This document shows positions 44,527-46,789 of a DNA stretch of 64,000 nt, one piece after another. Origin of the DNA: Clostridiaceae bacterium. Its GTDB lineage: Bacteria; Bacillota; Clostridia; Saccharofermentanales; Saccharofermentanaceae. The translations under genes were made by a program, and so were the position numbers. The stretch lies in the NCBI GenBank assembly GCA_012718915.1, contig JAAYBI010000049.1:1-64000 (forward strand). The letters are read 5' to 3'. The notes under the pieces are model-generated. The model saw nothing but the letters and a program-made list of their open reading frames with translations. It had not been told where the DNA came from and did not search any database. The stretch's first letter is position 1. The number at the start of each line of letters is the position of its first letter.

Positions 44527-44871
44527 TCAGCGAAGAATAACGACCGTAATACCGTCGTTGCCCCGAGCCCAATCCGGATCAGATCTGAAAGCAGGACACA
44601 AGTCGATCAAAGCTCTTCCGGCTTTCTCAAAAGGCCCAAACTGCTCACCCGGACAAAAGGCCTTAATCTTACCCGCTTGAAGCATATCCTTCAAGCAATC
44701 CATGGTAGCAAACTTCAAAGACCCACCTTCGCCGGAAGAACCATACCCATGGATAATCTTGACCTGACTGATTCCGATTCTGCGCATGGTATTCAACTCG
44801 AAGCGAAGCTTCTTCATTGCGGTTTCAACAACCGGCATACCCTCTTCGATATTAATTATACTGGCTGCCAC
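44527..44871 (-). CDS. Small Smr domain protein
   Basis: A 114-residue protein made of a Smr domain, as at the C-terminus of MutS2. Seen are LDLR-like spacing replaced by INIEEGMPVVETAMKKL and the core VKIIHGYGSSGEGGSLK. Smr domains cut branched DNA or RNA; stand-alone forms are common and poorly studied. The LDxH motif of active nucleases is not evident. Start is GTG at 44871, 5 bases after GGGG. Confidence 0.82.
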   Translation of the reverse strand: MAASIINIEEGMPVVETAMKKLRFELNTMRRIGISQVKIIHGYGSSGEGGSLKFATMDCLKDMLQAGKIKAFCPGEQFGPFEKAGRALIDLCPAFRSDPDWARGNDGITVVILR

Positions 44872-44993
44872 AAATACCCCTATTTTCTATGTTGTTGCAA
44901 GAGCGAATTGACCCGGCGCGTTATTATGTCACGTCCCCAGAAAATGGCTGCAAGACAACGAAAACATCGTGAATAAAATCTACTTACATAAGA

Positions 44994-45002
44994 ATTATAG
45001 CA
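44994..45002 (-). promoter_or_regulatory. Extended -10 promoter of the Smr gene
   Basis: TGCTATAAT on the minus strand (44994-45002), an extended -10. The leader is about 120 bases. Confidence 0.6.
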
Positions 45003-45038
45003 CAATTCTCATCTGATTATTCATCCGTGCCTTGTTTT

Positions 45039-45047
45039 TGTTATAAT
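45039..45047 (+). promoter_or_regulatory. Extended -10 promoter of the pseudouridine synthase gene, leaderless
   Basis: TGTTATAAT (45039-45047) ends 6 bases before the ATG at 45054. Transcription normally starts 7 bases after the -10, which falls on the A of the ATG. Confidence 0.65.
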
Positions 45048-45053
45048 GCGCTC

Positions 45054-45794
45054 ATGAGATTAGATCGAATATTATCCAACTCCGGATATGGCACACGCAC
45101 CCAGGTGAAGGCTCTGATTAAGAGAAAAGCTGTGTTTTTGAAAGATACTGTGTTGACGGACGCCGGTATCAACATTGACGAGTCTGATATCCGATATATT
45201 ACGGCAGATGGAAAACCCATATGCTTTCGACGGCACATATACTTGTGTCTGAATAAGCCCGACGGTTATCTTACTGCATTAAGCGATTCAAGACTCCCGA
45301 CAATCGCCGAATTTATTCCGGAAGAATTTCGATATAAAGGTATCTCTCCTGTAGGACGGCTGGATTTTCACACAACCGGCGTGTTGTTGCTGACCAATGA
45401 CGGAGATTTATCACATCGGCTCACGCGGCCGCAAAGTCTAAAACCAAAGACCTATCTGATCTCGCATGCCGGCCTTCCGACCGGAGATGACGAAGTCAGA
45501 ATTTTTAGTAATGGCGTAGTATTGTCTGACATTCCCGGGGAAACGACAAAGTTATCACCGGCTATTCTCGAACCGATCTCCGAAACCGTATGCAGAGTTA
45601 CTATTACCGAGGGAAAAACGCACCAAATCAAACGAATGATGGCACAGATTAATCGACCTGTACTTACACTTCATCGCGAGGCATTTGCAGGGATCCGCTT
45701 GAATCCGGCCCAAATATCAGGTCAGATACGCGAGCTTGAAGCTGAAGAGCTTCGGCAATTACTCGATACGAGTACCCCGCCGAGTATGAATTAA
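45054..45794 (+). CDS. RsuA/RluB/RluE family pseudouridine synthase
   Basis: A 246-residue enzyme. An S4 RNA-binding domain fills residues 1-60 (MRLDRILSNSGYGTRTQVKALI). The catalytic block is GRLDFHTTGVLLLTNDGDLSH with the aspartate of RLD, and TEGKTHQIKRMM is the late motif. It isomerises uridine in 16S or 23S rRNA; which site is not clear. There is no ribosome site before the ATG and the promoter is only 6 bases away. Its end overlaps the convergent J-like gene by 4 bases. Confidence 0.91.
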   Translation: MRLDRILSNSGYGTRTQVKALIKRKAVFLKDTVLTDAGINIDESDIRYITADGKPICFRRHIYLCLNKPDGYLTALSDSRLPTIAEFIPEEFRYKGISPVGRLDFHTTGVLLLTNDGDLSHRLTRPQSLKPKTYLISHAGLPTGDDEVRIFSNGVVLSDIPGETTKLSPAILEPISETVCRVTITEGKTHQIKRMMAQINRPVLTLHREAFAGIRLNPAQISGQIRELEAEELRQLLDTSTPPSMN

Positions 45795-46774
45795 GCTGCG
45801 GAATCGATAACGGCATCGTTAACGTAATCTAAAATGATACTATAAATAAATTCCTCTGCATCTTCACGATCATTTTCCGAGTTTGAAAACGAAAATACCA
45901 AAGAGGGCCTTTGAGTTCTCCAGCGGTTGTCAAAACCGACAGATCGAACAAAATCGTCGTCGAGGATCAAGACTCCATATACATGAATCGTATCAGAATC
46001 CGGCAACCTCTCATCTTCGGAATTGGATTGATCGATTTTTTCCAAATAATCGTAATGATCATTCATCGAAAAATACAAAGGCGTTATTCGACTTAGTTGT
46101 TCTTCCGTTAATTCCGCTTCCAATCGGGCATAAAAATCATCCATCGGTGACATATAAGGCAGAAACGATAATGTCGTTTTATTGTCCGTAATAATGACAT
46201 CCGCCCCAGCCGACAAAAAAGCCGAAGCAGCCAGCGTCCCATATTGAGAGTAGCCATCAGCTTGCTCAGAATTATCAACTATTATGTCTGCAACACCAAT
46301 AAACGGGTTCTTATAGTTCATGCGTTCAATCGCAACCTCTTCCAAGTAACTTCCGCTGTTTTGAAAGTGCCCCAGAGCAACGATTTGAAAATCTATCTTG
46401 GACGTGAAAAAGACCTGTTTAACAATCAGAAACACAACCAAGATTGCCACAGCGCCCAAAACATACTTCCACCATGAATAATATATATAGTTCTTTATGT
46501 CGAATTTTTTCTTTTCAGCAGGAAGGCCGTTATCAAGTGACGTGCTCACTTCTTTTCCCGAAGCAATCTGGTATATAGCGTTGATACGATCCAAAATATC
46601 CGCGTTGCTTTTGCGATCGACACGAAAACGCTTAATATATTGCCAATACTTTTCTTCGATCATGTAATCTGTTGCATCTTCATTTAAACCAAAAAATTGC
46701 AATGAACTCATTTTGTCCATCACTCGAATTTCATCAGAAGAAGGCACAACAAATTTAGTATCCTTGTTATCCAC
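45791..46774 (-). CDS. Membrane protein with a degenerate J-like domain
   Basis: Unrecognised as a family. About 327 residues. Residues about 25-72 read like a DnaJ domain (FFGLNEDATDYMIEEKYWQ, then INAIYQIASG), but the HPD tripeptide is RVD. One membrane segment follows at about 103-123. The outer 200 residues hold a mixed alpha/beta domain with ASAFLSAGADVIITD, reminiscent of solute-binding folds. Topology puts the J-like part in the cytoplasm. I chose GTG at 46774 with GGGGTG six bases before it; another GTG at 46783 is too close to that site. It follows lysS by under 20 bases, so it is probably in the greA-lysS transcript. Confidence 0.7.
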   Translation of the reverse strand: MDNKDTKFVVPSSDEIRVMDKMSSLQFFGLNEDATDYMIEEKYWQYIKRFRVDRKSNADILDRINAIYQIASGKEVSTSLDNGLPAEKKKFDIKNYIYYSWWKYVLGAVAILVVFLIVKQVFFTSKIDFQIVALGHFQNSGSYLEEVAIERMNYKNPFIGVADIIVDNSEQADGYSQYGTLAASAFLSAGADVIITDNKTTLSFLPYMSPMDDFYARLEAELTEEQLSRITPLYFSMNDHYDYLEKIDQSNSEDERLPDSDTIHVYGVLILDDDFVRSVGFDNRWRTQRPSLVFSFSNSENDREDAEEFIYSIILDYVNDAVIDSAA

Positions 46775-46789
46775 AAACTTCACCCCAAT

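Follow-up and report, generated by a model that had tools for sequence, protein, structure and literature searches.

The window analysed here, a stretch of 64,000 nucleotides from the genome of a Clostridiaceae bacterium (GCA_012718915.1, contig JAAYBI010000049.1, positions 1 to 64,000), encodes an rsuA-like pseudouridine synthase and, divergent from it, a gene with an smr domain. The -10 boxes of the two genes lie in one intergenic region, and a short region of this kind is common to most members of the family to which the genome belongs, referred to as f1 in the current analysis. The features of the locus are as follows.

45039 to 45047, plus strand: TGTTATAAT, an extended -10 element serving the rsuA-like gene; 55 of the 57 orthologues in the family have the box at a distance of 6-7 bases to the ATG.
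45048 to 45053, plus strand: six-base spacer GCGCTC, of which the length is kept while the letters at -2 to -4 are free, with a pyrimidine at -1.
45054, plus strand: predicted transcription start at the first base of the start codon, from the spacing and the C(-1)A(+1) step.
45054 to 45794, plus strand: rsuA-like pseudouridine synthase of 246 residues with S4 and PseudoU_synth_2 domains, from the reading frame and domain matches.
44994 to 45002, minus strand: TGCTATAAT, the conserved extended -10 element from which the divergent smr-domain gene would be transcribed, on the strand opposite to the rsuA-like gene.
44877 to 44881, minus strand: AGGGG, resembling a Shine-Dalgarno (SD) sequence, ahead of the GTG with which the smr-domain gene begins, read in the window.
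44527 to 44871, minus strand: smr-domain gene, the divergent neighbour with an ordinary leader that serves as a contrast case, from a domain match.

The S4 and PseudoU_synth_2 domains have been assigned to the product of the rsuA-like frame in Pfam, and its score against TIGR00093 (124.9 bits, cut-off 109.3; NCBIfam) places it among the pseudouridine synthases of the RsuA/RluB/RluE/RluF type. The best-scoring equivalog is that of RsuA (NF008097, NCBIfam) with a score below the cut-off (142.6 against 275 bits), and the protein is RsuA-like only, as distinct from RsuA proper, the synthase of pseudouridine 516 in 16S rRNA; its target site is putative. The best solved relative, 1ksk (E-value 5.3e-36), which we take to be the RsuA of E. 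coli, has the same two domains and is matched over residues 1-235. The N-terminus MRLDRIL lines up with residue 1 of the relatives. The first-pass annotation had referred to this enzyme as a ribosomal RNA modifier, a description that is likely by family, RsuA being the best match, although the cut-off of the RsuA equivalog is missed. A protein of 330 residues encoded at 45791-46783 on the minus strand, adjoining lysS, has no match in Pfam and NCBIfam searches.

The start codon of the rsuA-like gene is ATG (45054-45056), directly after the spacer GCGCTC. The earlier claim that an extended -10 element ends 6 bases before this codon and that no SD sequence precedes it is confirmed at 45039-45056, and an SD-like purine run is absent in 45027-45053 as read by eye. 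Upstream of TGTTATAAT the best candidate for a -35 hexamer, also read by eye, matches at most 3 of the 6 positions at spacers of 16-18 bases.

Such a motif in a single genome proves little, because the pattern TGNTATAATN{5,7}ATG occurs 2 times in the genome of 2.2 Mb against 3 times in a reversed-pattern control, and the per-gene chance of a box with one mismatch at either of two spacings is about 0.5%. The second of the two matches (C77), situated before a GGDEF gene, has been rejected in favour of a better, SD-led start downstream.

A search of 98 genomes gave a match in all 98, and 83 clear orthologues have been used, leaving out 14 genomes with a weaker paralogue only and one (G071) with a partial match at a contig end. 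The family f1 is represented by 57 orthologues from five genera, which are about 38-79% identical in protein to the synthase of the window; a box was accepted as TATAAT-like with at most one mismatch. A box of this kind ends 6 (41 orthologues) or 7 (14 orthologues) bases before the ATG in 55 of the 57, a count that overstates independence as the orthologues share descent, and it occurs in none of them at spacings of 0-5 or 8-10. It is this retention that takes the arrangement of the rsuA-like gene beyond chance, and the same spacing in related genomes, proposed earlier as a check, has thus been found. The two exceptions without a box are L069, which has AGAGGT before its ATG, and L088, in which the gene overlaps the upstream frame. 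All 57 orthologues start with ATG.

The base at -1 is C or T in all 55 leaderless orthologues of f1 while -2 takes all four letters; for comparison, a pyrimidine stands at -1 in 120 of 201 SD-led starts sampled in the window's own genome and in 95 of 175 sampled in a genome of genus g2. Among the 23 orthologues with a spacing of 6 outside g2, all six letters of the box are invariant, the TG before it is largely kept (T in 100%, G in 91%) and -1 is C in 22, the positions -4, -3 and -2 of the spacer carrying 0.37, 0.13 and 0.10 bits. Since the step from a pyrimidine to A is where transcription commonly initiates, the start is predicted on the A of the ATG. The proposal of the first-pass annotation that transcription begins at the first base of the start codon finds support in both features, the spacing (55 of 57 orthologues) and the pyrimidine (55 of 55).

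Other families of the same order have the leaderless arrangement in 5 of 12 (f3), 3 of 8 (f4) and 0 of 6 (f2) orthologues. At the level of the class 29 loci were read, and with L187, L188 and L192 left out as family members, 26 from other orders remain. An SD match of at least 4 bases is found at a candidate start in 22 of these 26, and the sole box match among them (L193) lies 5 bases before an ATG with GGAGG between. On a gene tree of 109 rows, based on the N-terminal 162 residues and with many weak deep branches, the leaderless state (63 rows) needs 9 changes, which the tree does not separate into gains and losses. Taken together, the counts in f3, f4 and f2, the SD-led starts of other orders and the changes on the tree suggest that the rsuA-like gene became leaderless within the order or close to its base and stayed so through f1. 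An SD match of at least 4 bases is absent in 59 of the 63 leaderless orthologues; codon 2 is AGA in 59 of the 63 against 4 of the 12 others, a difference that is confounded with descent.

A genome-wide leaderless habit has been considered for the window's genome and rejected. In a sample of 459 kb with 351 crudely called genes, 2 genes carry TATAAT (or TGn with one mismatch) at 6-7 bases and there is no spacing peak; the two are the rsuA-like gene and dusB. The whole genome holds 66 sites of the form TATAATN{6,7}ATG (the 64 loci holding them were read), among which the only plausible gene starts are those of the rsuA-like gene, dusB and an IS605-type orfB (L285). Better, SD-led starts are present in L291, L294 and L298, L055 is without a family match and probably not a gene, and a number of frames that are short or lie inside genes were discarded on visual reading.

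The dusB-like gene (C41:4487, L137:4487) encodes a tRNA-dihydrouridine synthase with a Pfam Dus domain, scoring just under its equivalog cut-off (289.9 against 293.3 bits), and has the leaderless-type spacing together with a 4-base SD-like match. Matches to it, some of them weak, are found in 36 of 38 genomes, and 30 loci (L236-L265) were read, of which L252 falls short of the start. The arrangement is kept in both of the g1 loci. In 10 of the 16 loci of genus g4 a box with at most one mismatch is situated at 6-7 bases without an SD match, and the remaining g4 loci include two with the box at 8 bases and three with a weaker TATCCT at 6, as judged by eye. The single g5 locus is SD-led, and among the 11 loci of g2 only L255 fits (and L256, with GTG). 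That two of two leaderless genes are RNA modifiers is striking, but the observation is post hoc and comprises two genes only.

Genomes of genus g2 have many genes with this spacing. In a sample of 400 kb from one of them (G034), the box stands 6-7 bases before the start in 11 of 308 genes and never at 1-5 or 8-11, all 11 lacking an SD match there. Genome-wide counts of the pattern against a control are 429 against 101 in 26 g2 genomes, 232 against 96 in 23 g4 genomes and 7 against 5 in two g1 genomes. The g2 genes with leaderless spacing (L167-L186) are of mixed function. Among 28 g2 loci, the divergent gene itself has a box at 6-7 bases in L030, L064, L067, L073, L076 and L097, and from these back-to-back promoters both divergent genes would be leaderless; in L074, L086 and L087 its box is at 8 bases, and the divergent genes of L087 and L097 also have a 5-base SD match. 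In L030 the intergenic region is just 27 bases long and the two -10 boxes are three bases apart.

Two genes serve as contrasts to the rsuA-like gene, and neither is leaderless in the window's genome. In g4 the smr leader measures about 30 bases: the -10 box lies 29-31 bases before the smr ATG, and most loci have 4-5 bases matching an SD sequence. The leader is longer in the genus of the window, at about 115 bases, and there AGGGG precedes the GTG (44872-44987 of the window, minus strand). The paralogous, RluB-like synthase was read by eye at 21 loci, comprising the own locus and 20 picked from the list of the orthologue search; a -10 box 6-7 bases from the start is absent in all of them, and the gene is often close behind another gene. 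A start codon followed by a stop codon (ATG, GTG or TTG, then TAA or TAG) stands right after the smr -10 box in 23 of 29 loci, the 29 being the window's own (minus strand, 44984-44993) and those of 28 relatives in g1, g3, g4 and g5. It may be just an initiation-site motif.

The promoter with its fixed distance to the start codon, the pyrimidine at -1, the absence of an SD sequence, the conservation in the family and the behaviour of the contrast genes are observed directly. Based on the sequence comparisons, the rsuA-like gene is very probably expressed from an extended -10 element without a recognisable -35, transcription beginning at the A of the start codon and yielding a leaderless, SD-free mRNA; we infer both the actual 5' end at the ATG and leaderless translation. 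The RNA polymerase with its housekeeping sigma factor would start at 45054, give or take one or two bases, and the mRNA would begin with 5'-AUGAGA and lack an SD sequence. In leaderless initiation a 5'-terminal AUG is read by an undissociated 70S ribosome, or by a 30S subunit with IF2 and fMet-tRNA, and the rsuA-like mRNA would be translated in this manner. Selection may keep the mRNA leaderless if the RsuA-type rRNA modifier is needed at times or places in which SD-dependent initiation works badly, and our hypothesis is that the leaderless mRNA lets the family make the enzyme while SD-dependent initiation is impaired.

A serious rival, to which we give perhaps one chance in a few, accepts that the gene is leaderless and regards the spacing as neutral inheritance, kept by a compact divergent promoter that changes slowly. 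The short region shared by smr and the rsuA-like gene in most members of the family is in line with this. However, in g4 the smr promoter, situated in that region too, retains a leader of some 30 bases, the letters of the spacer vary freely while its length does not, and the leaderless arrangement persists in L066, L089, L090, L092 and L097, where the start of the neighbouring gene, in translation, is unlike that of smr. A wider form of the selective explanation is more doubtful than neutral inheritance: the family would keep, by selection, a small group of RNA-modification genes without leaders, namely the rsuA-like gene and dusB, as a feedback from ribosome quality to RNA modification. The mRNAs with a 5'-AUG would be readable by SD-independent or immature ribosomes, and the enzymes that finish rRNA and tRNA would be made exactly when normal initiation fails.

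Transcription might also begin 1-4 bases upstream of the ATG; such a leader would be too short to hold an SD sequence and functionally similar to none. Polymerases of the housekeeping type initiate roughly 5 to 9 bases downstream of the -10 box, which would accommodate such a near-leaderless mRNA, but the conserved step from pyrimidine to A at -1/+1 points to the A itself and makes this improbable. Less probable still is a longer leader from an upstream promoter, or a protein start at GTG 45027, with the TATAAT near the ATG being coincidental or secondary: one weak promoter-like site is present on the plus strand at 44952-44979, the GTG is in frame and some in-frame upstream start exists in 28 of the 55 leaderless family orthologues, but the number of promoter-like sites equals that in shuffles, the spacing and the -1 pyrimidine are fixed in 55 orthologues, the distances of the upstream starts are scattered, 27 of the 55, among them the sister species L003, have no such start downstream of the nearest in-frame stop, and in some g2 relatives the intergenic region measures just 27-39 bases with the divergent gene's promoter included. 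The in-frame GTG itself is not conserved, and its use, named in the first-pass annotation as an outcome that would speak against a leaderless start, is disfavoured. An additional upstream promoter may exist beside the leaderless one.

Leaderless genes are usually treated as a genome-wide habit or as scattered accidents. According to passages of the survey of Zheng et al. 2011 (PMC3160421), they are predicted in 56 of 209 Firmicutes genomes, mostly of Lactobacillales and Mycoplasma, with a TATAAT-type signal near the start codon replacing the SD sequence and, in several low-GC genomes, a TG before the box. Both traits are shared by the rsuA-like gene; in the case described here, unlike in those passages, a single gene stays at leaderless spacing through a clostridial family (55 of the 57 orthologues), and the window's genome is on the whole SD-led. 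Excerpts from transcription start maps give 15 leaderless candidates in C. difficile (PMC7438776), 2-3% of transcripts in three solventogenic clostridia (PMC9045289) and 4% of intergenic starts in C. phytofermentans (PMC5171806), a low share similar to that in the window's genome. The C. phytofermentans cases differ in that, as the excerpt has it, they generally keep another upstream start and a ribosome-binding site. The first-pass statement that leaderless genes are rare in Firmicutes holds for these maps and for the window's genome and fails for the sister genus g2 with its sharp spacing peak. The word pseudouridine is absent from the main texts of PMC7438776, PMC9045289 and PMC5171806, and searches of titles and the beginnings of abstracts, which also covered bidirectional promoters and RNA modification in Firmicutes, listed no report of leaderless genes for pseudouridine or dihydrouridine synthases.

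The RsuA of E. coli modifies U516 of 16S rRNA and prefers an assembly intermediate, as stated in a portion of PMC10525438, within which a title on leaderless translation by MazF-made ribosomes is cited. In the parts of PMC2646832 that concern it, RsuA is still made, 2.1-fold up, after induction of MazF, its deletion lowers survival and it is called a survival gene under this stress. The same enzyme family is thus made while normal synthesis is off. The two systems differ in that MazF is an endonuclease acting on mRNAs, whereas the rsuA-like mRNA would owe its leaderless 5' end to its own promoter.

As judged from sequence, the SD-dominated genome of this uncultured clostridial lineage appears to hold a predicted leaderless mRNA that is deeply conserved. 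Leaderless genes as such are already known, and it is the conservation that is unusual. One gene would be leaderless across a whole clostridial family, with the switch points visible on the gene tree, and the other convincing case in the window's genome, the transposon gene aside, is a second RNA-modification enzyme. The rsuA-like case also parallels the synthesis of RsuA in times of stress in E. coli. With the family-wide conservation, the visible switches and dusB, whether and why leaderlessness is selected can now be tested by comparison.
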